A stretch of DNA of 64,000 nt, taken from Tubulanus polymorphus. Taxonomy: Eukaryota; Nemertea; Palaeonemertea; Tubulaniformes; Tubulanidae. Within the stretch, counting starts at the first letter, position 1. Each line of letters begins with the position of its first letter. This document shows, piece by piece, positions 40,546-64,000 of this stretch. A model generated the notes under the pieces. That model was given only the letters and a program-made list of their open reading frames with translations. It did not search any database and had not been told where the DNA came from. The position numbers were made by a program, and so were the translations under genes. The stretch covers positions 1,178,001 to 1,242,000 of the forward strand of contig NC_134026.1 of the NCBI RefSeq assembly GCF_964204645.1, given 5' to 3'.

Positions 40546-43324
40546 GCGCATTAACGTTATTGACTGCATCTTTTGCGGCCGATGCAAGCAAATCTGTGAT
40601 ACGGGAGCGCGCAATCACCAAACGACAATTTAACGAATTTATTCTGCATATTTTCCAACGCCAACAAAAACAGAGGAAAGCCATAGATGTTTACCATGAA
40701 AAATCAATAGCTTGATTAACCAATATCAGAAATGAATTTCAATCAAATCAATTTTGATCCAACCAGATAGATAGGCATCATCAGATCAATATCGTCATCA
40801 TGGCCGTCAGGGTAAAAATTCCCCCCGAAAATACTCTTCATAGAAATATTGCATTACAGACCCGTCGATTTGTTCGCAAAAGACATATGTGGCCTGGCTA
40901 CCCACGTAGTAGCAGTGTTGGTAATTTTTGTCATTTCGAGATCTTATAGTAGGTACTTTGACTTTCGTTACGAATAAGAAAAAAATAACTTCTAAAATCT
41001 TTGAAATGATCATGTGATCAGATAGAATGATTGCTACTTCTAAGAGACGGAGGCTGCTCTCAATATTGCCCTCAAACCAAAACAAACGAAGACAACGAAA
41101 ACGAACTTGCACATCTAATGTAACAATAATTGAGTACATATCAATCGAGTATGAATAAGTAAATATACATATAAATATTATCGTGTGTCTTATATAGTGT
41201 GACCGTCCTTTGCGAGAAATGTTTTAAGTGGACTTCGATCTTGGAGTTAGCGAAATTCTAACAACAGAGAGATAATTTCACCGAGTTCCACATTACGTAT
41301 ATATCACATTTCATATCTGGTGTATACGATCATCGTATATCACAAAAACAACACAAAGACAACTATATTATGTAAGTGAGATCAATATCTACTATCGTTC
41401 AATGTGTGTGCGTGTGTGTGTAACGATTTTTGTTTTGAATTTTAAGTGGGCCGACATCTATGTAGAATAAATCAGCGTGTTCAATGCGCTACATCAAAAG
41501 ATAACGAATAACTCGTTTTTATTCATTTTTTTGCGTTTTTGTGAAGTTAAGACAAATAACATCTTCCGACTTGCGCTTATTGAAGAAATGAGGTCCGCAT
41601 TTCTAGGACAGGAAATATTTTTTTCTGACGGACGTGCCTGATCGTGCCGAGTCCAGGAGCCCGTTACCTGATCGTGCCGGGTCCAGGAACCCGTTACCTG
41701 ATCATGGCGGGGACCAGGAGCCCGTTACCTGATCGTGCCGGGTCCAGGAGCCCGTTACCTGATCGTGCCGAGTCCAGGAGCCCGTTACCTGATCGTGCCG
41801 GGTCCAGGAGCCCGTTACATGATCTTGCCGGGTCCAGGAGCCCGTTACCTGATCGTGCCGGGTCCAGGAGCCCGTTACCTGATCGTGCCGGGTCCAGGAG
41901 CCCGTTACCTGATCGTGCCGGGTCCAGGAACCCGTTACCTGATCGTGCTGAGTCCAGGAACCCGTTACCTGATCATGGCGGGGACCAGGAGCCCGTTACT
42001 CGAAACGACTTCGCATTTCTTGAAAGTTTCCTCAAATCATTACGAAAAAAAGTAAGAATGAAATGTCGAGATGAGTCGGGAATAAAATGCTAAAAGAAAA
42101 CTGAAAAATAAAGCCGTTCCGTAGGATATTGTATCTACTTGCAAGCTATCGCTCAGTAACATTTAAGTCGTAGATGATTTTTCCTACCTTTCCATAACTA
42201 AGAATGCGTTCAATAGTGCAGGCTCTCCGGAAACTCCGCTTATTTTTTCATTGCGAATTCGATCGTTTCAAAAACTTTTGAGCCAAAAGTTTTGATAAGG
42301 ATAAGACGTTCAAAAAGATTTGTCTACAACATATTTTTTATTTGAAATAACAGTGCGAGGTTTGTATGAAGAAGCGAATTAAATAGAAGTATAATTTCAA
42401 TAATTTAACCCTGTATAATGGTATCACAGTCGCAAACAAATGAATGTTTTTCAAAAATAGATAATAAACTGCAATGAGCGAAATTCTATGATTTAGTAAT
42501 CAACAAAAATCCAAAATCATGTCGCATCTGCGAATTTGATATAACCAATGCACCTGCGCAATACTAGTAATAGTGGACATTATCACAATAAACATACGAT
42601 AATATATACATATTTAGTAAAATCTTTAAAATTTAACATTCTTGAAAACTTTGATACAATTAGAATTTGATTTTACATATTTGAAAGTAACAAAAAGGTT
42701 AACGGGCGTGAGCCGATCCGATGGGTTATACTATATGATATGTGTTATAAAAATCATAATATATAAATATATAAAAACGTCATTAGCAAAGTTATATATG
42801 GATATTGTCTTCATAATTAAAAGGCCTATAGTAAACTATGATAAATAGATCATTATCGGAAACTGGAAACTCATGGTAACTGGATTTTTCAAGCCGAATA
42901 ATATCTTCTATTATTGATGAACTTAAATTTGATATAATTCTAGCCTACTGTGTAACACTCGTGGGGATTCGAACCTGAAATGATCGGGAACTCGTGGTTA
43001 CGTATTCGGTTCGAACTCTGTACGAAGGATTAATTGATAACTGTCCTAAGTGGCATAAATTACATCGATATCAATTTAATAGAGGGGGTCTTCGATAACG
43101 GCGGTTTTTTCGATAGGAAGAGGTGGTGGTGGCGGCGTTTCATTTCGAAGTTCCAGTGGTTCTACGTCGGAATATTTATCTTTGGTGGCAGCTTTCTTTC
43201 TATAAAGGTTATTGAGAAAAAAAAGGAATAGAATTTCAATCTAAGAACGAGCATCGATGACGGAGGCGTGATAAAACTACGCAATAAATCGCGAAAAAGA
43301 TTTAAAACATCAAAACTATAAAGA
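40546..43324. other. Convergent intergenic region with minisatellite
   Basis: Contains the presumed 3' UTR of the helical-protein gene (AATAAA at 41466-41471), the 30-bp minisatellite and AT-rich sequence. Open frames at 40807-41139, 42642-42848 and 43034-43231 have no supporting features. Confidence 0.5.
41638..42000. repeat. 30-bp minisatellite, about 12 copies
   Basis: Tandem unit CCTGATCGTGCCGGGTCCAG plus GAGCCCGTTA (30 bp). Copies vary by G/A at the GGG or GAG position, by AGGAGC or AGGAAC, and by a CATGGCGGGGACC variant in the third and last copies. The period is divisible by three, so two frames stay open as GARYLIVPGP-type and RSPLPDRAGS-type repeats. These are treated as non-coding. 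Confidence 0.95.
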
Positions 43325-43561: not shown

Positions 43562-46500
43562 TTACGCCTTTACGTGTTTGTAGATGACAACTCCCAGAGC
43601 GCCCAAAACAATACAAACACAAACCACGACTATAATGATAATATCGGTCGTATCCAAAGTTGTTGGTCGTTTGATCTTGTTGTGTTTGAGGAGACACGCG
43701 TCAGCTGAAATGAACGAAGGAAATACTTAAATGTAGCGGATCGGAGCGCAAGCCAAGTCGGAATGGGCTTATTTTCAGTAATATCGTATTCTATACCATA
43801 ATACATCCAATGAATACTCAATGTTTTCAAATTAAATCTCACAACCCACATGTAAAGCCAACGTATGGATTCTAGTCTCAATAAATTGTTTGATAATCTA
43901 ATTAAGATCATCCTTGTATCGCCAAGTTTTGCCGTTACTCCCTCAGCGGGGAATTTTTGTTCTTACGTACTATTTCTTTTAGATAAACATTTCATTATTC
44001 CACAAAGCGATTTGAAAAAAATACAATTTATACAGATCAAAGTTTATGAGCGAATTGAGAAAGAATTTAACTTACTTTGGCGAAGCGTGTAACCGTACGG
44101 ATTCTTTTTAGCGTCGCAGTAGAGACACGAGTCAGTGACTTTACTTTCTCCAGGTGCCATGCAGTCACCGGACGGTAAGTTACAAATACCAGCCTGTACG
44201 ATATTAGATATACGATATCAGATATGTGATATACGATATTAGATTATAGATATACGATGAGAAGTTGCTTTTAGTTAATTGACGTGATATGCTTGTTAAC
44301 AATCACGGAAATCAGTAAAACCTTACGGATGTATGAATCAAGATTTTGACTTGTTTTGTAAAATCGTAAAACCAACAGCCAATGGGTGCAGATGTTTATA
44401 CCTTCTTCGTGCAAGTTGGAGTCTCTGCGTTACATTCGTGACAGTTCGGGTCAAAAACAAGATACAGCAAAGAATCACCGGGGTTTATCTTATTGTTGCT
44501 GAGAGACACAGAGTAACTATCGTTCTTGGTTGGAAGTACGCAGATGACTTGCGATTCGGTTACAAAGTTCGCTTTCGAGATAACTGGTGAGCCAACTGTT
44601 TCAGCTGAAGTAGTTATCTAAAACAAAAAGAATATTCTAGTTTTCATCTTTTATTTCGGCTAAAACTCTTTCAAGAAATAATTTAAAAAAATATAAATTC
44701 AGTCAAACTGATATTGTCACAATCTAATAACTGTATAGTTAAGGCAATTTAACAATAAATAGTCCAGTTCTGAATAATTGCAAAAAAAATTTTTGCCCCT
44801 CATGCGCAACATCTCGTAGAAAATAGTGTAAATAATTGTATGCATGTTTCTATGGACCTAGAGTGTGTATTGGATGAATTAACGAATAGATGAAAAATTA
44901 TGTTTCCTAAGGTCTAGAAAGAGGATAGTCACAAGGCGTGCTAGAGCGAGCTGAAGAATATGTCTACAATATACGTGAGTGCGGCCTTCATAGTCTTTCC
45001 GTGAATTTGCTAGTTACTCACTTTCAAAAGCGTCACATGACACGAAAGATCATCCGAATTGAAAATATTTGACGCTGTTACCAGCGCTTCTCTGCAGTTA
45101 GTAACGCGAGGATTGCAGATTCCGTCTTGACCGATGTTCGTCGGAATTGGAGCTTCCGTCATGTTCACCGAGCAAGATTCGCCGTCCCAACCCGGGTAAC
45201 AGGTACAATTTCCTGCAATGTCAATCAAACAGCTTTCAAAACACATTCCAAAATAGCCTAGGCCTTTTTTAATTAATCGGAGTACAGGTGTTTCAAAAGA
45301 GAAAATGGAAAGCGATTGGATTACAGGTGTTTTATAACAGTTGGGAACAGATAAAAGATAAGTACAGTTCTTGTATCATTCGAGTATTTCCACATAAAAC
45401 ATTGGAAGGACTGCGGAAAGAAATTTTTAAAAAGAGTGGAAATTGTGTCGAATTCGAATGATGGCAAAAACGGAGAAAAATTACTCTTTGCTAATCAATA
45501 CATTGACAATTCTGACGGAAATATCGAAAAAAGAACACGACCAACGAGGGCCGAATATAATTAAAATTCATATGACGCTCTTGGTGGAATTCCAATTACC
45601 AAAATGAAACTATAATTACTGATTAAATGAAGGATAATGAATTCAGTCGCTAACACGCAGATACTGTAGATAATCTTACCTCCTTCGCACGCTCCTCTTA
45701 AGTTACATTGTCCAGGACAGCTGTTCGCAACCATGAATGTGACAATAGCCGCTCCAGCAGGAGTGTCTGCAAAATCTGGATCTGCGTCGATAGCATTCTG
45801 ACACGAGGCTTTCATAGATTCGAGCGCACCTATTGCGCTTGCGTTCAAATCACCGCTAGCCTATGTGAAATGAAAAACCTTACGTAAATAAACAAGAAAT
45901 GAATTGCTAGAAAGTTTACCTTATAAGGCGAAACTTGTTCAAATTCAAACCTGTATATCTTCGACACATTGCGTGAGCGTAGTCGACAAATCTAGATCAT
46001 TGCTGGGAACGTTTGCTACTAACGCACATTTCGTGTACATTTCATTTTGAAACAAATAATCTCCGCAAGCTTCTTCCGCCAGTGCCTTCGTCCAAGGAGG
46101 TGTCCAGTCAGTGTCGTTCTGTGAAAGAGGTTTATTCATTCTTTTTAATTATTTGTATACAATAACCACGACGTATTATCTATTCATCCACCACTACCTC
46201 ACCATTTTTACAAGATTAACTATAATATTCTCTGTAAAGATATCGTCATTATACGAAAAAACCTTAACCGAATCAGCGTGTTAGACTTACACTAATAGGA
46301 TTGAAATTAGGATGTTCCTCCGGGAGATCAACTGGATCATCCTCTACAGCTCTTCTCCTTCGCTCACGTTGTTCAGTCTGAGCATCTCCTTCGTTATTGT
46401 TATTGTTATTGTTATTAGCATTAGGAGTTTCTTCTTCTTTAGGAACTTTCACTTGTTCTTCTTTTTTCTCTTCAAATCTGAGCTTCGTACTGGTTTTAAG

Positions 46501-49500
46501 GAACTCTTTAGTTTTGTCCTTCATGCCTCTTTCTGAATTATACGAAACAAAATGTTGTTTATGTAATAAGAAGCGTTGGTGGTAAAGTGTACAAAGAAAA
46601 AAAGAAATAAATTGCGGTTAAGCAAATGACCGAAGTTAGCAAGAGATTTGCAATATTTTCATAAAGTCCAATGAAAACTTGGGCCCTCTCGGTTGTGCTC
46701 TTCCAGAAGAAAAATTATCTTATTTATCTTCTGATTGTCGCGTTTTGAGAATTTCTGCCAAATATTCAGTCACTGCAACGGCGGAAAACGTCTATCGTGA
46801 AGAATTCTATCTTTTCCGTAAGAGTACAATCAAAAAGGGCCTTTGTCAAAACAACTGAACTAATATAAGCAAAAATATGCTTGTACGACTCAATGGATTT
46901 TGTTGCGCGATCCAGATACACCGTATGTGATCGGCTTGCGATTTGCTCCAATGATACTCACGAATAATGTAACATGTTTCGGTTGCTTTGTCATCGCCGC
47001 AAATAGCATCTTTTCCTTTCGCTACGAGGCAAAGTCGAGTCGGGGGTTTTTTCACTACTTTTACTTTTTTCGGGAAGTAGATCATCGTCTCGCGTACGGG
47101 AATTCTTCAATAAAAGGAATTTATACATAAAGACTATTCTTTCGAAATGTTGAGATTTTTAAATCTGTTCTTCAAATTAGAAGACAAAATAATACGTCAT
47201 TTTCTCAGAATTCGTTGGCAATATATTATCTTTTTGCATACTTATATTCCTTGTGAAATCGTGATGGATAACGTGTTAACTTTATCACTGATCCATCTTT
47301 CATAATCAAATCATTGGCTTTATTCCCGTTAAACCAGCCGCAGAGTCCTGTAATGATATTGTCTATGTTGAAAATACTGTTAAAACTAAACACTGCATCA
47401 TCTCTAACTCTGGTTTTCAGCTCGAGTTACGATCGAGCAAAATTCAATAATTTGTTAGTTTATCTTGACCTTAGTTTCTTTTTCTTTGGAATGTATCACT
47501 ATTTACAGTTAGCTGGTCAGATTATAATTTTCAAATCCTTACAATTGGTTTTTTCGTGACAAAAGGACGTTCAGCAATTTTTTCAAAAATTTCCATATCT
47601 ACGATAACATAGCGCGATCACAGTCTGAACAGATTGAAATAAAATTCCTCTAACTTGATGACAGCTTGTGCATAAATTCTGAGCCCGACGATACATGGTT
47701 TGAGGGGGTCAAAATATTTCATATTACAAAATATTTTCACATCCTTCGATCGAATTAGTTTTTAGCTTTAAAAGCGATACATACCACGAGTCTTTCTGAA
47801 ATCGGAGGGAGCAGCTGAGACGTAAACCGACATAATCCACTTGGTTTTTTTCACTGTAACTGACGTCCCGCTTGGTAGAATTACCTAATATTACATCGAT
47901 ATGGAATAAATTTATCCGTTTAATTTGGTTGATTAAATCGGTTAACAATTTTATTCAATTTACTAATTCATCTATAATTCCCACCTGGAGTTTGTCGCGT
48001 CCATAATACAACTTCATCCCCGGTGCTAATTTATCTTCGATGAAAAACTTGTAATTAAACGGTCGACGTTTAGGCTTTCTGCATTTCTTTCTGCGACGAT
48101 TTTTACCGAAACATTTACCACGTCTGGATGGCTTTAAGCACGCGTCCACAGTGAATATATTGCCGCGATGGCGGATTGAAACGGCACAGTTACAGCTAGC
48201 TCTTCTCGCGCACGGTTCGAGGAATGTTTGTACCTGACGTTGAATAAAGAATGAATTAACATGCTTTACATGAACAGTTATTTCGCTGATATTCTACGGA
48301 TATTTCATCCATTTGTTCGATACTTACCTCAGAGTCACTCTCCGTATTTTCGTAAAGGAGGAACGCACCGATTTTGTAGTTATTGTAATAACTGATGATA
48401 TGAAATGCAAGTGTATATTTCAAACACGTTTATTTACATCTTATTCTATGACAATTTACAAGATGCTTAAACCTAAAGACTTTTAACTTACGCTTTGTCA
48501 AACGTTGTGTAATGAGGATCACCAACTGCCTTACAGAACGGTCTTATTTTGTATTGCGATGACACAGATACCTGACAATTCAAAAAAAAGATTAGTGAAT
48601 GCATTCGGCCAGTAAGTACCAGGCTAGAGGAGGCAGTGTGCTGATTGATGCGCTGGTTAAAACGCGCCTAACGGAATACAAAGACATTGATTACCTGAAT
48701 TTTCTTCACTACCGTCTCTGAGTCGCGTACACCATTGAGGTAAACGGCATAACTAATCTCAATCATTCTATTCACAGGTTTGGATGGTCTCACTCCAATA
48801 TTTCGGCTAGTTACACTGATTTCGTGCTCGCCTTTCCAATTTTCTTCTGTTATATCTTTCCCGTGAGAGCCGAATGCAAGCCAGTATATTCCCCTTTTAT
48901 AACGTTTACAACTGTTACGAAACAAAAAGAACACGATCTAATGATGAATCTGAATGTAAATCATTAATCACATACGTTAGACATGGTGGCTGAATCGGGC
49001 ATACTAAAAATGTTTTCTTTATATGCGGCTAGAAGAATGATGAAAATATTTTCACATTGGCCCATTTTTGGTTTTCTCGTCCGAAAATTCATTTCAAAAC
49101 TTTAGATCTTCTCTCGCGTACATAAAAACTATTGAGTAGGCCCGAATCTATGAAATATATAAAAGAAATATATGACACTCGATCTAAAAAATTTTTAAAT
49201 AAGTTTTACACTTTTTGTTTTAACGTGGTCTTTTCCTTTTAAAGCCACGTTAAAACTAGTTTTCCATTTTAACGTGGCTTCAAACGAAAGACTCGTTTTA
49301 ACGTAGCGTTGAAACGCAAAGAGTCTAATGTATAGAAAAAAAAATGGTGGAGTTCGAGTGTGTTGTTTGTCGAATCGCTTACTAGTTGTACGAGCGTTTA
49401 CTATCCGTGAGGATTTCACTGGCGATCACTCTGACGATACATGAGCTTTTTCCTTTACACGGAATAGATGGGGATTCTTGCACTTTGAATTTGAACGATT

Positions 49501-49545
49501 TCGTCTCACCCATATTCAACTCCAAACGAGCCACATTCACTACAA
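43562..49545 (-). other. C-terminal VWDE-like portion (vWD, EGF, Cys modules, TM)
   Basis: Exons: 49545-49383, 48911-48695, 48571-48492, 48391-48328, 48233-47985, 47884-47785, 47347-47242, 47104-46962, 46532-46291, 46118-45951, 45860-45680, 45212-45022, 44617-44402, 44193-44076 and 43704-43562. In order: a beta-rich segment with SFKFKVQESPSIPC; the vWD domain start VGDPHYTTFD; CNCAVSIRHRGNIFTVDAC; LPSGTSVTVKKTKW; SDFRKTRGLCGWFNGN. Next come a basic segment, a poly-Asn run with QRERRRRAVEDD (furin-like), a Trp/Cys segment TDWTPPWTKALAEEAC, an EGF-like module ending CTCYPGWDGESC, DGICNPRVTNCREA, a VFDPNCHEC module, and ICNLPSGDC...SCLYC. The last exon encodes a roughly 20-residue helix (IIIIVVVCVCIVLGALGVVI) and a short YKHVKA tail. 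This order matches VWDE (von Willebrand D and EGF domain protein). vWD domains usually mediate multimerisation or adhesion. Confidence 0.88.
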
Positions 49546-52500
49546 CCTGGAAACAACGAATCCGAATACGAGATATAGTATCACCTACAGCGAAAACCAC
49601 CATTGACTAGATATAAATCATTAGGAAAGATTACTTCAAATCGCTTTTCACACGACTTAGACATCAAACGTTCCATTGCCTCAAAACGTATTTTGATTTC
49701 CTTAGACGCATATGCTGGACAATCCTTTATGTTAACAGTCAAACAAGCTTTACTAGATTTCATTAATCTAAAAACAAAAGACTAAGTATGAGATATTAAG
49801 ACAAAGTTGAGAATGTGATTGAGAAAGTTTGATAGAAACCAAACGATTCATTTCAGAATGAGTTCTAATTGAATAGATGCTTACGGACACAATGAAACGG
49901 CAGCTTCTTTTTTATTCTCTAACTTTTCTTCCAGTTCTCCGATACAGGTTTTAGCTGCCATCAATCGACAGGTTGAAGAAAGCCACGGCGCGTATTGAAC
50001 GTGTGGACATTTTTCTTTTAGTTTATGACATTTGATGATTCCCAGAACCCCCCGGTCTATCATCGATTGGTATCCGCCTTTACAGGTCTTCATGTTTTCT
50101 CCAATACACGACACCATCTTTGCCATATCCCTGAAACATTCATTCATAAGATCGGGCGGATCTCAAGAAGTCTGAATGATACGGGGATAAACTTGAGGTT
50201 AATTGAAACGAATTAAGTTAATCCCGGGTTTAACGTCAATACAGGACTCAGTTCCACAGTTCCACAGAGTTAAAGTTAGTTCATTTTCAATGTTTTATTT
50301 AACCCAGGGTTAAATCTTAACTCAGAACTGTGGAACTGGACCCTGGTTTGTAAAACTGACCCATGATTCTGTAAAGTCAAAATTATGAAAAAAACTAATT
50401 TTGTTGGTACACGTTTCCTACTCGAAACAAATTTCGTTTCAGAGACTACCCCGAAAATATTCATTCGGCTGTAAACGGTTATTTACGTGCAGACGTCCTT
50501 GCCATCAACGAAATTTTTCGTAAGACCTTCACTGAACGTCTTTACGCAGGCTTTGGCTGTATAATAATCACATCCCTCTTTTTCTACAACGAAATATTGT
50601 TATCAACCTTCAGTTTGAAAAGAATATGGCTACATGTATGTGAAAGTCAACATCGCATGTGTATTTAGGGAAGCGTCCTGGGGATATGTATCTATAAATC
50701 TTTCGTCGGGTTAGCTAAGTCAAAATAAACTACATTCTATAACTTTCAAAGTTGTAAGTGATTTTCGAGGTTTATTCAGAATTATCTCAGAATGAACCCA
50801 GACATACTATTTTTCACAAGTATGTCCCCGCGACGCTTCCGTACAAATGGATTCACGTGGCTACGATAGCTGAAACACTTACTCGCTATGGTGGTTTTAC
50901 AGTAATTATCCGCACATTTTTCCAGATGATGTAAAACCATTTTCTTTCGAGTTTCCTGATCGGCTGTGCATGCGGTCGCTTCATCATCTATACACTCTTT
51001 TTTCTCTTTCATTTTGCTAGAAAAAAAGGGAAAAACCGTAACGACGAAAGTATCTCGATGAGGTATTCGTAGCAGCAAAACGGTTTTTGAAATCAAATCT
51101 ATTATACGACGTAAGAAAATGTATTGAATTGTCGAAAGTTGATTTCGTCGTCGGGGATCTTATACTACCGCGGAATATATTGGATTGTAAATACAAATAA
51201 GTAATTGTCTTGTTTCAGATCAAAGCAGATTATAGATGTGACATACATATGATGTCGACACCGCATAGTAAGAACTGGTAGTTTTGAAAATTCAGGTAGT
51301 TGATGTCTATTAATTTCATCAGTAACGTTCATCATCTCTGCAGTAATCGGCATATCGAATACTCTTATTAAGTACTGCCAGACCGAATGCAATCACTAAT
51401 TTCTGACCATTGATATTGATTACATTGATAAGATGTGACCGTGCGGTGGAATCGGGAGATCTGATCCGAGGGATCACGGGTATATCGGTTATATGTGGTA
51501 AGATATCTGCGGTCATCTATTCACTTACTCGCAGAACGTTTCGTATCTCTGTGAGTAATACGCGTTAACACGAGCATACTCCAGTTCTATCAAACATTTC
51601 ATCGGAGCCGACTGGGCGCATTTTTCTCCGGTCACAACTGGCGGGACCACCGTACATTTAGTTCCGACCTTCTCCTTGAACACGCTTTCCTGAATGCGCA
51701 TCGCATTTTTCACGGAGACGTAAGCGATTTTAACACAACCGGCTAACTTGTTGACGACGCATTTTAGATTTTCATTGAACGACGAACAAACTGCGGTCAT
51801 ATCATCCTCAATAACGACATCAGTGGCGGTTTTAGTTAGTTCTTCCAGACATTGCTTGGCTTCGTCTATCTGACACGTATCTTCGTCAGCTTTCGGTGTG
51901 ACATCTTCGCAAGCTTCTTTGTTGATAGCGTGTACGACATGCAAAGCTATGTATAAGATTCGTTGAGTGTACACAGAACACTTTTTACTTTCCGACACAA
52001 CGTTCAACAGCATAGCCTTGTAATCACTGTGATAAAAAAAAACGAAAACCGCCATATATTCATTGAGGTAAATAAACAAATCAGTTACTCAATGAGGAAA
52101 GTACGGAAGAGCAATGCGGCCAACAACAATTTATTTTCAGTTTAAAAATTCGACTTTTCGAGTTAGTAAGTCGACTTTTTAAACTCGAAAAGTCGAATTT
52201 TTAAACTGAAAATAAAGTGTTGTTGGCCGCATTGCTCTTCCGTACTTTTCCGTAGGAAAGAACAACAAAAAACAAAATTCTTTTACCGGCAGAACTTTTT
52301 CTGAGTTTCCTCATTGTCTGCAGATGCTTTAAATGTACGACCAAAGTATTCCACGATTTTAGCTTTCAGCAACTCGAATTTACATTCGTCTAAAGTGATT
52401 GAACACATATTTTAAGCATATCAATGCATGAATAAATTTTTTCTGAATTTTTGGTAAATCATTTCAATACGCACCAGCTCCAGGTCCCATTTCGATTGTT

Positions 52501-55500
52501 TTCGCATCTGAAAATTTTCATATCAAAATGAAAAAAATGATGCAAACAAATCTCACAATAAAATAAATTAACGCAAAATAGTCAAACTAGGGGTCCAAGG
52601 ACACCATGCCCACTTGGGAAGTGGTTTGAAATGCTCAACAAACATAAGTTTTTAATATTCAACACCCACTGGTGACCATACACGGAAATATCTCTGAAAC
52701 TCACAACAATCATAGAACATGTCATGAGCTACAATTATGGAAAGAATTTGCTATTGATCGCCGTTACGAAATATGCACAGGAACTAATAGAAATGGTCAT
52801 ATTGTATAAGATTGAATATGACTTCCCCTTGATGGCAATAATGAAAATTGGGTGATCCCAATTCCATATGGCAGCACTATTAATAATCAAATATGAAGTT
52901 AAAACCAGTTGATATTTTCTTTGATAAAAACCTTTCCCCTGCGAATGGAGGAATGATGACACCAAGATGGCCATCGTTTGACGTGTATCATTTCCCTGTG
53001 ATGTTTGAGTTGATGATATACAATGATGACGTCGATGTTACAAATTTCAAAGCTACCTCACAAGCCGATAAAGCTGAGCGACACCCGCCATGAACAATCC
53101 AATAGGGTTAGTCTTAGGAAACCAAGATCCGGACATAAAGCAAGATAAACAAACAAACAAACATACTGTCTTACTGAATTCAAACGTTCATGTCATCATC
53201 GGAGCTTTGAATATCATAGTATTCATTTCTTATAAGGATTCAGACCATAGTATACGAACCGTATTTCTGACATATCTCATTCTTCGTCGTCCCAATAGCT
53301 TCCAGAATTCGTTTCATGCGTACATATTTCACCTTGTTTGGACCGTTTTCACAGTACATTTTCAGTTTCGTCATACATTTTGTTGAATCCGTCGTCGCGA
53401 ATTTTCTAATACAACCAAGAAATTACTTAAAACGTTTATTGCATTTTTGAAAAAAAAAGCTATTCGATAAGTTTCTTAATCAAAACTTCTGGACTCTATT
53501 CAACAACCTCGATAAAGATCTAAGGACACTATAGTCAGCAGGCAAGCACAGTGACTTACCGGCAGAGTTCAGAATTGTACTTTCCGGCAAATATCCCTTT
53601 CATGAATTTACTATAATAGTCTTTCGAACACTGTAATGTTTCAGTCGAATCGCATTTGACTGAAAGCAAAATAATTGAAGAACTTCATACATTCGGGAAC
53701 TCTAAACTATGAGTCTCGAAACAGTGATTCTACGCTTGCTCGATGTTGAATACGAGGTTGAACCGTTTTTACCTTCAGGTTTCATGCACTGACGCAGGAT
53801 GCCTTGGAATAGGCCGTTGAAGTAGTAATGAATGAACTGTTTTTCTCCGGGACAGTTATTCATTTGTTTTTTAACGCAATCTATCGCTTCAGTGAGTCGA
53901 CTGTAACAAAATCCATCGAAAACATTAACATTTTCTATGTGAAAACCGATTAGCTCGATGATGCTATACTTTAAACAACCTGCATCGTGTTTCTTCGTCA
54001 ACTTTTGTATCCAGCACCATTTTGGTACACACTGAATAAACTTTCTCATTTGTGCAATTTTCCTTTACTGGTGGCAGGTCATTACATATTTTAGACGCGA
54101 CTAATGACTTTCTCTTTTTCGCCAACACACTTATGAAACGGAACTGTACCGCACCGCTACACTCTTTAATGTCCATCGTAATTTTTCTTTCAATATCGTA
54201 ATATACTCTGCAAATATAAAAGGAAATTTATTTCTCTACTAAGGAAGGATTTTACTCCCAGTGGCGTGGAGGATACGCGAGCGAAATAATTTAAACGATT
54301 AAAGCCTCGTTTCAGACGTTGATAGAAAAGCGATATTCAAATTTGTTGGACTGTCTATGGGGAAGGATCTTTTTTAATAGGGGGTTAGTAGTAGCGGGGA
54401 ACAAAATTCAGTATTTTTCATTAATTTTGTGTTTTACAGCGAAAACTTCCAATTGGTCTCTCAATGGGAACTCACTTGCAAATGCTTGATTTTATGATGG
54501 AGTCGTCGGTGACAGTTGCTTTCCAGAATAGTGAAAAGAATACTTTTAAGTACTTTTCAGCTTCCTTAAATCGGCACTCTTTACTCTCTGCAAGACAGTT
54601 AAGATTTTCATCTTATTTCAATTTTAACTTTTGCAATGAGTTATTGAGTCTTTTCTGATGAATAAAACAGCTTACCTTCTTCATCCGTGTCTGGAACTGG
54701 AATATAAACGGGCAAAAATGGATTAATCGAATTCATATGTATTGATTTTCAATAAACTACGGTGTTTTTTTATCATTGATCGGGATTATTTTTGGTATGT
54801 GTAACTGTGATGATGGCGAATCAAACTAATGTATTTAATGAACACATCAGATTGTATTTTCTGTTGCGCCCAGTCAGATTTCTGTAAAACCTATAGGTGG
54901 GGTGCATCGTACTAATCTACAGTGATGCAAGTGTGTCATTCCGTACAAACGCGTGATAAAAATAACTGTATGCATGAGAAAAACCTGAATTCCCGATCGA
55001 AAATGATGATTTCGAACATTTTGATCAAGAAATTACATTTTTCTGTTTTATTTCATAGCGGCAGCGTTCTATTGTTAAAGAATACAGATGTTAAATCAAA
55101 TATAAACTTACTCATTCCTGAAAATATTGTTTAGATCATGATTCGGTGAATGAAGATATTTAAGATAGTACGCGAGGAGAGAAGTTGAAATCGATGAACA
55201 AAAACGATTTTGAATAGCGAACTTTCACTTACTATCGTCGTTACATATAGAGTTATCCCCCACGAGTTGACCCTTAATGGCCGTAAAACGATTTGCAATC
55301 TCAGCTGGTTTCTGCGAACACTTGAACGAATCTTCGCCAACTTTTCCAAAGCATTTCTCTATTTTCTTAACCAATTTATATGACTCCCTAAATTTCAATA
55401 CACAAACGTATTTTTCTTCAAATATTTTTTTCTAAAGAAAACATGGTTGAATATGATACACATGTATATAGTAGTCGGTGGTTATCGAATACTTACGAGC

Positions 55501-58500
55501 AAATATGTTTAATGCGGTAACCTCCTTTCATCATAGCGTCGAGAATTTTGTCACCAACTTCCGTTATACACTTGTAGTTTTTACTTTCGTAACAAATTGA
55601 TTTATCTAAAAATGAAAATTTTCTTTCAAAATTTTTGTTCATTTAAAACAGATATCGTGAAAAACTATGACATTCAGAATACGTAAGTTTTAGTTTGTTT
55701 GTGTAAAGCGTCTGAACATCCTTTTGGATATACAGCCTCTGTGGCTCTGCTCAGGCTTCGGTCTCCTGATTGTCACTAACCTATTTTGTTATTATCAATT
55801 TTGTAAATATTGATGGGGACAAATAAAATATATACTATTAGATTTGTACCTTGAAATGACGTCTTGATCGCCAATAGGATTTATCTTCGTTTTTTACGGT
55901 TAAATGCATCGAGATATTACGCACAAAACGTTGTTCATTTCTCAGTATTGATAAAAAAAAGTTGGACTGGGTAAGATTTTGACAGAGAAATATTGCGGAA
56001 CTTTTGCAGATTCGAAGACGAAACGTGGTCATTTACGTTATTGCATTCAGCACCTTAGATTGGCGAGGTGTGACGACGCTAATGCTCGATGAAAAAGTCT
56101 CCATGACAAATAACTCGTAGCTTAAAAATTACAATCATAAATAGATCTAACCATCCATCGGAGTAACGGGCCACCATAACAAGGTACCGTCGATAGCAGT
56201 CGATGCCAACCGCTATTTATGTAACTACGTAAAACGCCGTTGTTTTTATACAATCGAAATGCCGCTTACCGCATTGTTTTGAGTATTTATACGTGGAAGC
56301 AACGACCTTCTTTTCTAGATACAATCGTTTTTCACGATCACAACCAGCAACCCTTTCGTTAACGCACAATTTCAACTTGGTAAACTTCCTGAAATTGATG
56401 CATTATGAAATGGTAATTGTGTTTCGAGAAATATTTGTGTTCGAATGAATTAAAGTCTCTCATTAATTCATTAATTTATTGTCCATATGTTAGAGGTAAA
56501 GCCCAACGCACACGACGCAGGGAAACATAAAAACACAGAAACAAGCAAATAAACTTGTTTGATCCCGAAACGAAGCATTTCTAGTGGATTCACACGGGAA
56601 TCAAAGTACTCACTCCTGGCGCGAATCCGTACAAATCTTGTTATTCCCGGTTTCAGCTTCTTTTAGATTCATGGTAAAGTCCTTTATACAGGTAGAAGCG
56701 CCCTCGTGATTACAACTTGGTTTCGGCGGTGGTGGAACCAAGTCATCATCTTCTTCCTCCCGTCCCTCGATTTGGTAGTCGACCGCGCACTCGAATTTGC
56801 TGGTTATATTTATCAGGGTGGATAAGTATTTATAAATCTTCATGAGAAGTCCGGAACTGCACGACAGAATCATTTTTTCAATTTCCATTCGATCCTTGTT
56901 GAATTGACTGCGGATTAAAGATAAATACATATATATTATATCAAGTTTACGCAGAATGATATGAAGCCGTAGAGTAAAGAGAATAGAATCATTCGAAATT
57001 AAATTCGGCTACACACATGCAGGTCTTTTGACGGAAAAACTTATCCATGACCACCGCCTTCCTTATTGTCTTAGAGATGTGTTTTATTTTCTTAAAAGCC
57101 GTCTCAGCTTTGCATTCAGGCGCTTCTGTTGAATTGAAAACACAAGATCGATAGGAACACCCAAAAAATCTACTCAACACAAATCGATTTGATACGCAGT
57201 GCGACAGAAAAGATTCAAAAGTTAATTGTCTAACCTTTATCGGGAAGTATAATTGTTGCTGAAAATAAACACGAATAAAAATATCAGCGATACAAAGAAA
57301 AAAACCAAAATTGAGTACATCATCGAAATGGATACAGTGAGTATAGCTTACGAGTTTCTACGCAAGAGTTTTTCAGCAAGGTCTGCATTACGGTGACTAC
57401 AGTACTATATCTTGTCTTCGTTGTTTTATCGCACGAAGTCTCCAAAGTAGTCAAGCATTTTGTGACTTCAGTTTTTCTAGCATCACTGTTGGAAAAGTAT
57501 CAATGCGATTTCAAACGTTTGAATACGTGCACGTGTTATTTTCGGAAAATGTAAGAAAGACGTTAATTTGATCTTACCTACAAACGTCATTACTGCTGGT
57601 GCTATTTTGCGTATTTAGGTAGATAAATCCGTCTTGAATGTACGTTTCCAAACACTTTGCCTCCTTCGATTGGAGACATTTCACTGAAAAAAACCCAGAT
57701 TAATTGCATCATATCCGAACACTGGTAACTATTATTATGAGTATAATTAGTATAGATCTTACAGGATTTTGCTTCGCAGTAAGTTTGAGTAAAATCTGTT
57801 TTGGCCGTTTCGATGACGTAAGATGCAGTTGGACAACATTTGCCGGTGAGAGTATCGCACAGGGTTGCATTTTGAAGAGTTCTGTGAAATCAAAATTAGA
57901 ATGGAGATCAAGTAGTGAATATCTCACACCACAGAAATCGATTTTATTGTTCTATAGTTTTCGTATTAAAAACTCACGCGCAAGCAGTCTGTAAAGTGCC
58001 GTTCATTAACGAATCTTTTAAATTTTCTTTTTCCTTCATCAGACAACTGCCAACTTTCAAAATGGTACATTCTTTATCCGATTTGATTATTGTACCGCTC
58101 TCACAACTGGCAGAAAACGAAGTCTTGAGGTAATACAACATATATGCTATGTCGTGTTGAAACTTGCCACTGCAATTTGCGTCAATCGCCAACTTCTTCG
58201 TGGAAACAAATGTCGAAGAGTATTCCCTAAAACATCGGGTTTTGGATGATAGTGTTATGGAAGCGGAAGTGACATAATGAACAATATCGCAGCTAAACAA
58301 ATATTGATCGCGTGCATGTGTTTAACAACTTACTTGCAAAAGGTTGCGGTGATTTTCTTTCCCCACGACAAATAAGGTATGATCGACGACGATAGTTTTA
58401 TCAGATTGAATGCGATAGACACCAAACTCGCTTTACATGCCATTGGTTCTATAAAGTTGTAATACATGCAGTCAGCAGTTTCACTAGAAATCTCATATTT

Positions 58501-61500
58501 ACCTATTTCTTTTACAATTCTACACTTAACGCACCTTTACTGTATGTATCGAGGAACTGTCCGCCTGAAAATTGATAGGTTTATCAATTACGGAAGAAAT
58601 TATCTCTGATAGCAATGAGTCTATATGGATATAACTGAGATTCGTACCTTTGCATATGCTCTTTAAGAAATCTTCATAACGCGTGAAAGCACGGTTGATG
58701 CTATCAAAAGTACTCTGATCACACGTGTTCCGAACTTTCAGTAAACACTTATGGTAGCGCCGGTCTTTTAGGATTCTGTCAAAGTGTAATTGTAATTCAA
58801 TAAACCAGGAACGAGGTGACCAAAGATGAAACATAACAAGTTGTTACACTTACTTGCAGGCTTTTTTAGATCTCAATGCCAATAAGTGAGTGGATGTATG
58901 TTTTAAATAGTTCGATAAACAGCGAGTTGCATCTGAGGAATAGCATTTCTTATCCGGTTCTGTGAATGTAGCATCAGAAAGGTATTCTTATGTTACGGAT
59001 TTGTCACAAACTGATTATACACATATTAATCATAGATGTATCGAAGGAATAAAAGGATGAATAAGAAGGATTGAAGTGGAACCCAGAAAGTGATTCATAA
59101 AATCAAATTTAATCATTATTTACCTGTACATCTGTACTTGATGGCAGAAATTGCATACTGGAAAAAGCGTTTCTTGCCATATGGACATTCCTGTACTGCG
59201 TCTGTGATACACTTGGATTTTTCAGTGATCTTTCTAGAAAATGTGTCCACGTACATACAATATAAACGATGAAAAAGTAGAAAAATCAGTCAGAAATATC
59301 TCACTGATAAGAACTACTTACTTTTCAATGTGTTTGCAAATGTCTTTTCCACGTTTTTTACCCTTTCCTTTGTGTTTTATTTCCTTGGATAGTTCTTTCA
59401 TGCATTTCTTCGCCTTATCGAGTTCTTTCTTCCCGCATTTTGGTTTCTCCTCAGTATCAGGGCACTCCATTGCTTTTGCCATCATCTCAGACGGGTACAT
59501 TGAACGTAGTACCGTGAATTTCAAGAAATCGCTGCATTTCTTCGCTTTCCCTTCGAAACAGCTCTTGCCATTTTTGTAAGCACTGTAAGAAATCCAACAA
59601 CATATTTCTAAATCGCATTACTCTTGTTTATGAAAAAGTAAATAACCACGTCTTAGTGGCTTTGTGAGTGATCGCGACGATTGGTACTATTGGTATTCAT
59701 GGGCTAAATCTTGGCCGGTCGGTAATCGTGCAATAATGTAATTATTACCGTGATTGTTTTGTAACCGAGATGCACAACAAGTTAGTTATAATAATGAATA
59801 TCGGATTTATTTCGAATCTCATAGAATATCACGTATCTTTTTACCTGCAAACGAATAACTTAGACACTGCCTTGTCCTTGAATGCCATACCAAAAAGCAT
59901 CGTTTCCATTGCATGTTTTGCGCAATACTTTAGTTCATCGGATTGGCATTCGACATTTTCTGAAATGATAGCGCACTCAATCGAGTGATCCTTATTGAAC
60001 GAAGGCTTTATTTCAGATCCGTGAAGATGTGTTAACGTATTATGTCACTTACCGTAAACTTTTCCGAAATCATAAACTGAAAAATAAATTAAACAACAAA
60101 ATAAGAATAATTGAATCTATATTCATTATAACCATTGAAGAAATACTATTCCGTATTGCGACGATATAGAATACTGGCACACGATATAGAATACTGGCAC
60201 ACGATATAGAATACTGGCACACTGATATAGAATACTGGCACACGATATAGAATACTGGCACACGATATAGAATACTGGCACACGATATAGAATACTGGCA
60301 CACTGATATAGAATACTGGCACACGATATAGAATACTGGCACACGATATAGAATACTGGCACACGATATAGAATACTGGCACACTGATATAAAATACTAG
60401 CACACGATATAGAATACTGGCACACGATATAGAATACTGGCACACGATATAGAATACTGGCACACGATATAGAATACTGGCACACTGATATAGAATACTG
60501 GCACACGATATAGAATACTGGCACACGATATAGAATACTGGCACACTATATAGAATACTGGCACACTGATATAACGTATCGGTTATAATGATAAGGAAAC
60601 GTCGAATTAATGAATAATTAGCTGAAAGAAACTTTTTGGAATTCATCGGGATTCTCTATTTATCTATATTGATTGATGTGGCGCGATTTCAGTCACATCT
60701 CACCTTCGTCTTTACAGATCATATCACTGAGCTTAGTCAATGCTTCCAACGACTTTGAGTATCTTTTCGTCACTTCGGCGTCACATTTTTTCTCGTACTT
60801 TTTGAAACATTTTTCTACCTCGTGTTTTTGTTTCTTCCTGTAATTGGAATAATTTTAGACGTGGATCATTTTTTCGAGATTCCGAATTGGTTCTCTACGC
60901 ACGGAGGAGATTTACGAACCTGCATAACGTGCTTTCCTTTCCTGTGTTGTATACCAGTGCCTCGAACGCGTTATAGGAAAATCTTTCAAGACACCGTATC
61001 GGAGTCGATTCTGTGCATTCAGCTGAATATGAACGTACGAATAGGTATTATAATCGTTCTAAAAGAGCGGCTTTGAAAAGAAATGATTCTCAGCATCCTT
61101 CAAGTCTTACCGACATCATCCTCACACATCGGTTCTAGAAGCTTATAGGCGTTATCCAGAATGTTTTTTCCAATAGGTGAACAGTCACTTCTTATACTCG
61201 ATACGCATCCAGTTTTCCCAAAAATTTTCCTGTAAATAGAAAAAGTTTTAACTCACTGCCACAAAATAATGAAACCTATGTAATTTCTTAGTAAAATTCT
61301 TGTAATGAAGATTTTCGTTAAATCTGATTTTACTTACAAACACATGTTAGATAAAGTCATGTGTCCCATTGTGAAGGCGTATACGTGTTCATTCATTTCG
61401 AAGATACATCGATCAAATTCATCCTTTGAACACTTCGCTTTTGGCGTTGGAATGTTCGAGCACAATTTCATGTCTAACAAAGTCCGATCTATGGTGTTTA

Positions 61501-64000
61501 GCATATAGTCGAAACGTAGAAATGTGTTATAACTACAGCTTTCGAGGTTTGTTTTTATGCAACTTTTCGATGTAGTGAGAACCCTTGAAAATCAAAGAAT
61601 ACATATTAAATTCAATTTTTAGATTTTACTTTAATTTTTCTATTTGCACAGTATCTATTGTCTTTATGTTAATATCAGATGAAGACAAACGGGTAATTCC
61701 TTAATGAAATTTGGCCAACAACTCATAGGTTTTTGGTACCATACACTTTTTGTTGATTTATTTCATGTGTAGGTTGCCAATATGTAATAGCTGTCTCCCA
61801 GGTTAATAAAATGCAAAAGTGTTTTTATTACATTTCTCTTTTTTCTTTTTTTCACTTTTCCCTTTTGATGGACCTGTTTTATATAAACTATATTCCTTAG
61901 TTTCTACAGACCCCTCCAAGTCTAATTAATTTACTGTATTTTGTATTATGCTTTTGTACACTATGCTGTAAATTATATTTGAAAATAAAACGTTCATTCA
62001 TTCATTCATTCATTCATTCATTCATTCATTCATTCATTCAAAAAAATTTCAAAAAAATGAAATATACGCGCATTTGAGGAGCTCTTACGTGCAGAATTCG
62101 TTATTTGCAGGGGATCCAATTCCTATTATGGACCCATCGACTATCTTCGTCAAACATTTCGTAGCCTCAGCCGCCTTGCATTCATCGGCTTTACCTGAGG
62201 AAAATTCCACAATTGATGACAAGAAATTTATCAGTCTACCCTTGTAATGAATTAGAAGTTCATACATCGATTGTTTCTGTTCTCTAATTCTCGTTCAACC
62301 TTGCGTGTTGAATGTTAGAAAACAACCAAAACGTTTCAATCCCAATCAACTCTCTAAATCTCAACACTTCGATTGTGGGACTTCGCTTTCATTATATTTC
62401 TAACGGTTAGTGTCTAAGGGAACAGTTTGGTTAGTACCGATAATAATTTGGAGTGCTCGATTTTTCTAAATGAATATTCATGCTTACCTCCAACCTCGGG
62501 CGAATCTCCTAAAATAGATGCAAAGAAATGTTACTTTCAATCGAACACGTATTTTTGCATAAACATCTAATTCCTAAGGGCTTGCGTTACCTTTTACACA
62601 AGCTGCCATGAGATAACCAACCATGTTATAAACCAGTTTGTAGATATTGTTGTAGATAGGGATGTCAGGTGATGCTTTGCAATGTTCATTTACATTTTCT
62701 AGAAGAGTTTGGACACCTCCTGTGTAGATATCTCTGAAAATGTGAAATATAAATAAGAGAAGAATATGTTTAACAGTCGTTTTAACGCATTAAACCTTTT
62801 CAGCCTTCAGGCTTGTAATAATATTGCTTGTCACATCATATTAATGTTAAATATTGTATAAATTATATAACGTGCATGTTACACGTATGTCACTACGTGC
62901 TATATTTGTAAACTGCGGGCTGGTTGCATAGTCATGGCTTAGACTTAAGACCAGTCTTAGACCAACTTAGTTCTATAGCCAATCTAACAACTTGAGACCA
63001 GTCATAAGATTTAAGACCACTTTTGGACTTAAGTCACGACTGTGCAACTGGCCCCAACGTAGATAAAGTTCAAATTCAACAGATTCTTACTCGCAAACTT
63101 CGTTTCGATTTCCAATGGCCCATTTTTCCAGTGTGTCCACCATATTGTTTTTCAATTCGACAGCTGCCCCGGATCCCAAGCATGTTGGATTGACTGCAAA
63201 TAATATAATCGAATAAAACCTAAAATCGTTACCAAATCTATCGCAAATCATATATATGACGATGCCGAACATACCGCATTGATTTTCATAATGGTACGTA
63301 ACCATCTTTAGTTTTGCTTCGAGGACGGTAGTGTATATGTCATCGCATCCTGTCAGTTTTTCCTTTACACACTTTGTCATTTCTGTAACTAATCTGTCGT
63401 ATACAAAGAAAAACGCCATTTAGTACACGAATAATTGTTATTCGTTCGGATGCATTTATCGTTATCTTACCCCTTAAGTTTGCATATATTATTCTTTTCC
63501 TTCATATATTTAGCAAACTCTTCATTGAGGTTTGAAATGCATTTAGCTGCTTCATTAGCCTTGCAAAACGGAAGCGGCTCCTTGAAATTTGTGCATTGAA
63601 GTTTGTCTAATATTCTCATTTTTAATGTTGAGTATCCAGCAAGGACTGAGTATTGACCGGGGCCGGAACAGTTAACGATGTGACCAGTCGCACACGAGAA
63701 AGCTTCCTTATACAGACTGTTAAAGCGAAAATAAAGTTAGTTAGATAAACATGTCTACGGATCATCCGAGATTCTTCATCGAGTTATCTAAATCGGAATA
63801 AACAAGTATTCTACGTTTAAAGTGAGGTTAATTCCGAGTCACATACTCGGTATTAACCTAATTTTTACACAAATGTCGCCAGGACGCTTTACTTAATTTC
63901 GAAGATAAACGAAAACTAGTGAAGAGACATCAATCATACCTGCAAGCGCGATTTATCGTGTCACGCGTACCAACGATAGCACTGCCAATAATATTCAATA
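43562..64000 (-). CDS. Giant type I membrane protein: Cys-rich repeat array + VWDE-like C-terminus, 5' end outside window
   Basis: Fifty-seven minus-strand exons from 64000 to 43562 join with matching phases at every junction into about 2,715 residues, with no stop until TAA at 43564. The N-terminal 1,920 or so visible residues are about 23 cysteine-rich helical domains. Each is roughly 80 residues with six Cys and is encoded by a reiterated six-exon cassette (see the entries for 49635-63716). The last repeat exon (49635-49767) ends in phase 0 and joins the VWDE-like part starting at 49545. The edge exon (63940-64000 and beyond) is already an f-type repeat exon, so the array continues upstream and no signal peptide is visible here. 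The predicted form is a large extracellular protein anchored by one C-terminal helix. The function is unknown. The array could be a separate transcript, but phase continuity and the absence of an intervening start, stop or polyadenylation signal argue for one gene. Confidence 0.85.
49236..49290. repeat. Inverted repeat with TTTTAACGTGG motifs
   Basis: AAAGCCACGTTAAAACTAGT and its inverted partner CCATTTTAACGTGGCTTC form a compact hairpin. Related TTTTAACGTRG motifs occur just outside, at 49209-49226 and 49293-49310. It is intronic, between the last array exon region and the vWD part of the giant gene. Confidence 0.55.
49635..50130 (-). repeat. Cys-rich repeat array, terminal half cassette 8
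   Basis: Exons a (50130-49885) and b (49767-49635) only. Exon b ends in phase 0 instead of phase 1 and joins directly to the VWDE-like part, so the fusion point lies inside what is normally a cassette. Cys spacing such as CHKLKEKC and TCRLMAAKTC follows the other units. Confidence 0.8.
50200..50346. repeat. Hairpin element with TTCCACAG termini
   Basis: Contains GACTCAGTTCCACAG and, inverted, CAGAACTGTGGAACTGGACC, with internal TTAACCCAGGGTTAA-like sequence. It shares its terminal motif with the 5214-5271 repeat. It is intronic, between repeat exons 50487-50583 and 49885-50130. Confidence 0.5.
50487..52026 (-). repeat. Cys-rich repeat cassette 7, with fused exons and no microexon
   Basis: One 498-nt exon (52026-51529) replaces exons a+b+c, then come d (51016-50883) and f (50583-50487). 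The fused exon enters and leaves in phase 2, exactly as a, b and c would together. The microexon e is absent, which the 1-1 phase allows. This unit has the clearest full-domain text, e.g. CQIDEAKQCLEEL and CVVNKLAGC. Confidence 0.85.
52101..52245. repeat. Near-perfect 145-bp palindrome
   Basis: Arms of about 65-70 bp read GTACGGAAGAGCAATGCGGC ... GCCGCATTGCTCTTCCGTAC, with the centre near TCGAGTTAGTAAGTCGAC. The arms are almost identical, which implies a recent origin or gene conversion. It lies in the intron between cassettes 6 and 7, about 75 bp upstream of the fused exon. Confidence 0.92.
52287..54207 (-). repeat. Cys-rich repeat cassette 6
   Basis: Exons a 54207-53980, b 53900-53773, c 53659-53560, d 53405-53260, e 52507-52475 (33 nt), f 52389-52287. 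Phases follow the common pattern. Exon b reads AIDCVKKQMNNC. The intron between d and e (52508-53259) carries a probable transposon fragment. Confidence 0.85.
52560..53180. mobile_element. Possible transposable-element fragment ending in (AAAC)n
   Basis: The sequence changes in character inside the enlarged d-e intron of cassette 6. It ends in AAGATAAACAAACAAACAAA, a simple-repeat tail typical of some non-LTR elements. No coding remnant was recognised, so the identity is tentative. Confidence 0.3.
54476..56907 (-). repeat. Cys-rich repeat cassette 5
   Basis: Exons a 56907-56614 (294 nt, the longest a), b 56388-56270, c 55605-55497, d 55387-55233, e 54696-54676 (21 nt), f 54611-54476. The extra length of exon a is an acidic and proline-rich insertion (EGREEEDDDLVPPPPKP) between its two half-domains, probably a flexible hinge. 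Confidence 0.85.
57017..58226 (-). repeat. Cys-rich repeat cassette 4
   Basis: Exons a 58226-57978, b 57881-57763, c 57683-57578, d 57485-57352, e 57258-57235 (24 nt), f 57125-57017. It is the most regular unit. Exon c reads LKCLQSKEAKCLETY and exon d EVTKCLTTLETSC. Confidence 0.87.
58334..59582 (-). repeat. Cys-rich repeat cassette 3
   Basis: Exons a 59582-59322, b 59233-59124, c 58959-58854, d 58775-58648, e 58564-58535 (30 nt), f 58502-58334 (169 nt, the longest f). Exon a has a Lys-rich stretch (KHKGKGKKRGKD) within its second half-domain. Confidence 0.86.
59845..61583 (-). repeat. Cys-rich repeat cassette 2
   Basis: Exons a 61583-61338, b 61229-61111, c 61022-60920, d 60837-60704, e 60076-60053 (24 nt), f 59959-59845. 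The d-e intron carries the 20/21-bp minisatellite. Exon f reads VECQSDELKYCAKH. Confidence 0.87.
60160..60578. repeat. 20/21-bp minisatellite with higher-order structure
   Basis: Unit ACGATATAGAATACTGGCAC (20 bp). Usually every fourth copy has an extra base, ACTGATATAGAATACTGGCA (+C), making a higher-order period of about 81 bp. The array has about 20 copies. It is intronic in the giant gene. Open frames across it (ASILYRVPVF-type) are artefacts. Confidence 0.95.
61700..62042. mobile_element. 3' tail of a non-LTR element with (CATT)n
   Basis: An AT-rich segment ends in TGAAAATAAAACGTTCATTC followed by about eleven more ATTC repeats. A polyadenylation-like AATAAA directly followed by a short tandem tail is typical of LINE or SINE 3' ends. 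It lies in the intron between cassettes 1 and 2. No protein remnant was recognised. Confidence 0.55.
62089..63716 (-). repeat. Cys-rich repeat cassette 1 (first complete in window)
   Basis: Exons a 63716-63471, b 63393-63275, c 63193-63091, d 62733-62591, e 62508-62488 (21 nt), f 62194-62089; preceded by a partial f exon at 64000-63940. Exon f reads DECKAAEATKCLTKI, the clearest example of the C-x7-C-L half-domain signature. Confidence 0.87.
62917..63056. mobile_element. TIR MITE, copy B
   Basis: A close copy of the element at 33920-34060, in the intron between exons c and d of cassette 1. It is bounded by GGGCTGGTTGCATAGTC and GACTGTGCAACTGGCCCC. Two intact copies about 29 kb apart suggest a family common in this genome. 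Confidence 0.85.

Follow-up and report, generated by a model that had tools for sequence, protein, structure and literature searches.

The window analysed here is a stretch of 64,000 nt (contig C2:1178001-1242000) from a genome of 267.8 Mb in 77 contigs, and coordinates past 64000 belong to an extended window that adds 30 kb of the same contig. On the minus strand lies a gene of 68 exons (gene 1), running from its ATG at 67969 to its stop codon at 43076. The gene model was read by eye and checked by script. All of the introns are GT-AG, with a median length of 113 nt, and the predicted product has 3,279 aa and no internal stop. From the N-terminus it contains a candidate signal peptide, exons n2-n6, a PAN-like exon, an array of six-cysteine domains (residues 446-2446, 2,001 aa), a vWD domain, an EGF domain, a transmembrane helix and a short tail. 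The candidate signal peptide was called by eye, and the intron after its exon has 41 nt. The PAN-like exon has phases 1-1 and matched PF00024 with E 7.3e-4 and 19.8 bits, which is below the cut-off of 21.4. Lysine makes up 13.1% of the array, which contains 323 K+R and 266 D+E. One EGF stretch passed Pfam (PF23106), and the overlapping PF25024 match was below the cut-off. We are highly confident that the gene anatomy is as modelled. The features are given below; they come from the gene model unless another basis is stated, and the exon classes a to f and the cassettes are described afterwards.

65186-64144 (extended window, 5' of the window), minus: exons c0, d0 and e0, start of cassette 1
63940..64000, minus: 3' part of exon f0, which straddles the window edge, cassette 1
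63275..63716, minus: a1 63716-63471 (phases 2-2) and b1 63393-63275 (2-1), end of cassette 1
61111..63193, minus: cassette 2, with c1 63193-63091, d1 62733-62591, e1 62508-62488, f1 62194-62089, a2 61583-61338 and b2 61229-61111
59124..61022, minus: cassette 3, with c2 61022-60920, d2 60837-60704, e2 60076-60053, f2 59959-59845, a3 59582-59322 and b3 59233-59124
57763..58959, minus: cassette 4, with c3 58959-58854, d3 58775-58648, e3 58564-58535, f3 58448-58334, a4 58226-57978 and b4 57881-57763
56270..57683, minus: cassette 5, with c4 57683-57578, d4 57485-57352, e4 57258-57235, f4 57125-57017, a5 56907-56614 and b5 56388-56270
53773..55605, minus: cassette 6, with c5 55605-55497, d5 55387-55233, e5 54696-54676, f5 54587-54476, a6 54207-53980 and b6 53900-53773
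52287..53659, minus: first exons of cassette 7, with c6 53659-53560, d6 53405-53260, e6 52507-52475 and f6 52389-52287
51529..52026, minus: exon of 498 nt (2-2) in which a7, b7 and c7 are fused; it closes cassette 7 and opens cassette 8
49635..51016, minus: rest of cassette 8, with d7 51016-50883, f7 50583-50487, a8 50130-49885 and b8 49767-49635 (2-0)
48695..49546, minus: exons v1 (0-2) and v2 (2-0), conserved stretch preceding the vWD domain, with the same phases in gene 2
47242..48571, minus: vWD domain, exons v3-v7, with GDPH at residue 2590 (PF00094, E 2.1e-15, 57.8 bits, cut-off 22.9)
46291..46532, minus: exon v9, with a furin-type RERRRR at residue 2876 (gene model and motif scan)
45022..45860, minus: exons v11-v12, EGF domain (PF23106, E 3.2e-7, above cut-off)
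43566..43704, minus: exon v15, transmembrane helix, 19-residue hydropathy maximum from residue 3215 (hydropathy)
43076..43199, minus: final exon v16, encoding a short cytoplasmic tail and the stop

Motifs of the R-x-[KR]-R type occur at array residues 1677 and 2012 and at residue 2504, between the array and the vWD domain, and are possible extra processing sites. The next gene upstream is a separate minus-strand gene (extended 71000-69735), which ends at about 69735. Its product has an ApeC (apextrin C-terminal) domain (PF16977, E 3.4e-36) and a PAN-like part below the cut-off. Matches to ApeC, vWD and EGF, together with RGM and Forkhead matches given below, mark the DNA as that of an animal.

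The array of gene 1 contains 45 exons. An earlier note on this DNA had described six exon classes with defined sizes and phases, repeated in order, and these classes were found in the sequence, with canonical phases in 43 of the 45 array exons. The phases are 2-2 for a, 2-1 for b, 1-2 for c, 2-1 for d, 1-1 for e and 1-2 for f. The sizes are 228-294 nt for a (seven separate copies within the window), 110-128 nt for b (133 nt for b8), 100-109 nt for c, 128-155 nt for d, 21-33 nt for e and 97-115 nt for f. The upper size of 169 nt once given for f did not hold, and no f exon of this length was found. One of the two exceptions is the 498-nt a+b+c fusion in unit 7, whose net phase 2-2 is what the fusion predicts. 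The other is the last exon b8, which ends in phase 0 instead of 1 and joins the array to the vWD side. No e exon was found in unit 7, between d7 and f7 (cassette 8), and a6 has a weak donor site (GTTGTT). No exon model was found to break the phase pattern, the result set beforehand as one that would speak against it. The intron between d2 and e2 holds a minisatellite with units of 20-21 bp (60160-60560).

A control was needed because the array exons had been curated with the claimed pattern known. We employed a pattern-blind exon finder that used splice signals, frame and codon use (trained without the array exons), with the start and stop fixed beforehand. At the loosest exon penalty it recovered 54 of the 68 exons, and 37 of the 45 array exons were exact; at two stricter penalties the exact array exons were 35/45 and 31/45. 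The array frame has no stop in 2,002 codons, versus 122 and 165 stops of 2,001 codons in the other two frames. The codon-preference signal per codon was 0.140 in the array frame, -0.038 and 0.015 in the other frames and -0.168 in the introns. A scan that combined phases, splice signals and the cysteine pattern gave 18 matches in the array and none in the remaining window.

The a-f register leaves ragged ends on the array, whereas in the register c-d-e-f-a-b every cassette both begins and ends in phase 1. Read in this way, there are eight cassettes (the eighth without e), c0 directly follows the PAN-like exon, and b8 is the last exon. Each cassette encodes three domains (c-d, f-a and a-b), 24 in total. 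The seven to eight repeats counted earlier thus became eight, and the estimate of about 23 domains had to be raised to 24. Two exons make up every domain: the N-half has phases 1-2 and the C-half 2-1, and the split lies just after the third cysteine. Exon a carries a C-half and an N-half in one exon, and exon e is a short linker. Domain 21 (51648-51884), which lies in the fused exon, is the only intronless domain of the gene 1 array. Phase 1-to-1 units, the mark of symmetric exon-shuffled modules, were found at several levels: the whole c..b cassette, the c-d domain, the e linker and the PAN-like exon. Such a layout would be expected of a symmetric module that was copied first singly and then as a block.

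Domains at the same position in the cassette were more alike than others (p 5e-5 with the cysteines and 0.001 with the cysteines masked). The non-cysteine identity between domains was low, with a median of 16% and a maximum of 30%. Self-blastn gave one match of 21 bp (E 0.51) once the intron minisatellite and a short repeat of the c0-d0 intron are set aside. The tandem duplication claimed before is therefore supported by the exon grammar and the weak same-position similarity, but the similarity between cassettes at the DNA level is gone. From the grammar and this weak excess we infer that the cassette was duplicated as a block. In the probable order of steps, a two-exon domain (1-2, 2-1) would have been triplicated, two half-domain exons would have fused to form exon a, and the linker exon e would have been gained. 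The array would then have grown by tandem duplication of the three-domain, six-exon cassette c-d-e-f-a-b.

The cassette is not confined to gene 1, and a second gene on the same contig uses the same block. BLAST with the gene 1 array gave 36 matches among the best candidates scored, all within gene 1. BLAST with the vWD half of gene 1 gave one weak relative at contig C2:5633238 (E 0.0036), and an exon scan there found half-domain exons. This gene (gene 2, contig C2:5628459 to about 5643700) lies 4.4 Mb from gene 1 and has the same c-d-e-f-a-b grammar. Its two arrays are shorter, with 6 and 4 domains, and each is followed by a vWD region of its own. The chained exons, 12 in the first array and 11 in the second, have no in-frame stop; they were picked with the grammar known, more so than in gene 1, and two linkers, e4' (12 nt) and e5' (18 nt), are tentative. 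The first vWD passed Pfam (E 9.7e-9), and the second reached 22.6 bits, just under the cut-off of 22.9. EGF and transmembrane segments of gene 2 were read by eye, and its EGF, like its vWD, is placed downstream as in gene 1. Gene 2 shares with gene 1 the phases of the N-terminal exon n6' (0-1) and, at both arrays, a 2-0 last array exon followed by a 0-2 exon. Unlike gene 1, it has no PAN exon between n6' and c0', and exon a is once split by a phase-0 intron. The positional domain types of the two genes did not match (p 0.71), so the arrays of the two genes seem to have diverged long ago or to have grown separately, and no shared ancestral cassette is visible in their sequences.

The grammar has been kept over 45 exons despite divergence to about 16% identity. 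Because it outlasted the sequence similarity, exon phase is a sensitive detector, by which gene 2 was found although BLAST with the array had missed it. More distant vWD matches about 5 kb apart mark a third vWD locus (contig C2:25221887-25227427, 25.22 Mb), with no cassette in the 4.5 kb read upstream. On another contig (C11:5723008 to 5726600) there are at least three half-domain exons with phases 1-2 and 2-1, which likely belong to a third gene with an array domain.

The 24 domains of gene 1 contain 137 cysteines, with the typical spacing C-x7-C-x20-C-x8-C-x7-C-x22-C and some variation. Cysteines C2 and C4 are both absent in five domains (4, 11, 14, 17 and 20) and both present in the other 19. 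In the 34 domains of genes 1 and 2, both are absent in 10 and both present in 23; the remaining one has six cysteines but was counted as C4-less, its C4-C5 spacing of 11 falling beyond the set limit. The chance of the coincidence in gene 1 is 2.4e-5 if the losses are independent, and such figures are optimistic because related domains may share one ancestral loss. That C2 and C4 are missing together suggests that they pair as a disulfide, so that joint loss yields a disulfide prediction from one genome.

Domain 21 was modelled by AlphaFold2 with 13 C-half exons as the alignment, which covers only the C-terminal half of the domain. The model has three helices (6-22, 29-47 and 52-76), with pLDDT 82.6 and pTM 0.66, and the domain is accordingly predicted to be a six-cysteine three-helix bundle. 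A single-sequence model of the fused exon alone was poor (pLDDT 48.6). Foldseek against the PDB gave no significant match to the domain model. We also considered an inner half-repeat duplication, since MAFFT overlays the N-half and the C-half (both C-x7-C-x~20-C). It was rejected, as the halves are not equivalent in the fold model, where one comprises one and a bit helices and the other the rest.

The earlier note had not recognised the architecture among named proteins, and this agrees with our searches, in which the array domains passed no cut-off in Pfam, nor in NCBIfam as far as seen. Several families gave weak single matches and were rejected. CPG4 matched one gene 1 domain (E 7.7e-4) and one gene 2 domain (E 0.019), and similar single matches were seen for DUF1397 (one domain), DUF7045 and neuritin (0.027, in the exons of contig C11). 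The CPG4 and neuritin families had no match in the genome, which does not imply their absence, as the control genomes gave none in one search and one sub-cut-off match in the other.

Animal surface proteins rich in repeats mostly consist of named modules, and members of the VWDE family are secreted without a membrane anchor. Gene 1 is like VWDE in being an extracellular protein with a vWD (PF00094, E 2.1e-15) and an EGF-type domain. In contrast to VWDE, it has one EGF stretch, a 2,001-aa array before the vWD and a transmembrane helix, namely one strongly hydrophobic 19-residue segment near the C-terminus, which does not fit secretion without an anchor. VWDE is described with EGF repeats and with no array of the gene 1 kind (PMC9117669). 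FCGBP, MUC4, SUSD2 and other GDPH-cleaved vWD proteins also carry a GDPH motif at the start of the vWD (PMC10880436), but the neighbouring domain type differs, and the gene 1 protein had no Pfam match to C8, TIL or AMOP at E <= 1. No paper on such an array was found within an open-licence library, which does not imply absence from print. Gene 1 belongs to a known kind, a repeat-built membrane protein from symmetric exon modules, and the unusual part is the cassette grammar across two genes.

One giant membrane-anchored gene, with an array from a repeated multi-exon block, is the best reading, as had been proposed. We think it likely that the product is a type I membrane protein, with a candidate signal peptide, an N-terminal region, the PAN-like exon, 24 domains, vWD, EGF, helix and tail, that is, a long disulfide-braced stalk with a self-cleaving vWD near the membrane. 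The array would act as a long, rigid arm, braced by disulfides and rich in lysine, that keeps the N-terminal PAN-like region at a good distance from the cell. Taken on its own, this stalk role has about an even chance of being right. The array may also present a multitude of related yet diverged faces to which matrix or partner molecules could bind. GDPH self-cleavage has been shown for other vWD proteins including RGMB (PMC10880436), so the membrane-proximal vWD of gene 1 should also cut itself at GDPH; the halves would stay disulfide-linked, and the furin-type site may allow release.

Repeat-rich surface proteins in recognition roles are known, and the array could instead serve chiefly for recognition (gamete, allorecognition or immune), with a surface that diversifies fast, and less as a spacer. 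The array domains keep their cysteines and little else, as the identities above indicate, and the PAN-plus-ApeC gene adjoins gene 1 upstream. However, old duplicates also diverge under weak constraint, and we regard this alternative as unlikely.

Other readings start from the N-terminal domain of the RGMs. An RGM domain folds into a bundle of three helices, has three disulfides and binds ligands of the BMP family (PMC7354924); a vWD that cleaves itself is a further part of RGMs (PMC10880436). The gene 1 protein resembles RGM (PF06535 RGM_N, PF06534 RGM_C) in the six-cysteine spacing of the array and in a vWD with GDPH; three helices are predicted for the array domain, but the PDB search with its model gave no structural match to RGM. 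The spacing C3-x8-C4-x7-C5-x22-C6 is close to that of RGMs, including an ordinary RGM gene in the same genome (contig C5:5312317-5312520), in which RGM_N (one exon) has E 1e-12 and RGM_C E 6e-27. RGM_N was also the Pfam family matched by most domains (3/24, best E 0.0018), but all of these matches were below the cut-off, the best with 18.9 bits versus 24.2. In profile searches of the PDB, the RGMA N-domain was the sole sequence at E <= 10 with all 24 domains (E 0.18), the first of three with the 15 canonical domains (E 0.24) and the second of two with 17 domains (E 0.68). It was not matched with 21 domains (the 17 plus four of gene 2).

Shuffled sequences gave a mixed picture. No Cys-preserving shuffle of 200 reached the mean RGM score, where one unscored domain of the 24 and the unscored shuffles were set to a fixed low value, but 18 of the 200 reached the best single-domain score and 60 of 300 hydrophobicity-preserving shuffles reached the real mean. 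The array profile scored RGMA above all 500 hydrophobicity-preserving shuffles, and 0/500 reached this score in both shuffle types. For the RGM of the same genome and for RGMB, in contrast, 242/500 and 25/500 hydrophobicity-preserving shuffles reached the score. A prokaryotic control library even gave a better E (3.9e-4, 1/24 domains). The hhalign probabilities against RGM were 20 and 7, and RGM was absent among the 49 Foldseek matches. By inspection, none of the 24 domains has the loop by which RGM contacts BMP (Gly at +2 and Asp/Asn at +3 after C5, then Leu ... His; PMC7354924), with Gly at +2 in 5/24. RGMs have one N-domain instead of 24, and the vWD half of gene 1 had no Pfam match to RGM_C at E <= 1.

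Being a cysteine-spaced helical bundle thus accounts for part of the RGM signal, since shuffles that keep the hydrophobic pattern score about equally well, as does a library of unrelated sequences. The RGMA-specific result (0/500 in both shuffle types) keeps the lead alive. The strongest lead is the RGM N-terminal domain, yet homology is not established by the controls. It appears doubtful that the 24 domains are an unnamed extracellular six-cysteine three-helix family remotely co-descended with the RGM N-domain, forming multivalent ligand-binding vWD receptors built by cassette copying. A genuine kinship of the array domains with the RGM N-domain, in which the protein would serve as a multivalent BMP/GDF trap or co-receptor, we consider improbable.

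A further alternative divides the locus in two, with the array in one gene that stops near 49.6 kb and a vWD-EGF membrane gene following it. This could account for the atypical b8 (2-0), and the gene model is drawn solely from genomic DNA. However, the reading frame continues through b8 into v1, so the connection of the array frame to the vWD region proposed earlier stands, and both arrays of gene 2 have the same junction, a 2-0 C-half exon and then a 0-2 exon. Two genes are thus highly improbable. A decayed gene, or an assembly artefact repeating one locus, is barely credible: repeated units can be mis-assembled, but the array frame is free of stops over its 2,002 codons, and the units differ widely, cassettes sharing no similarity at the DNA level.

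Two more features were observed in the window beside gene 1. One is an exon of a Forkhead gene at 15042-15752 (PF00250, E 3.2e-35), and the other is a tandem repeat at 41629-42093, which can be translated in two frames into a Pro/Arg-rich repeat peptide and is probably a minisatellite.
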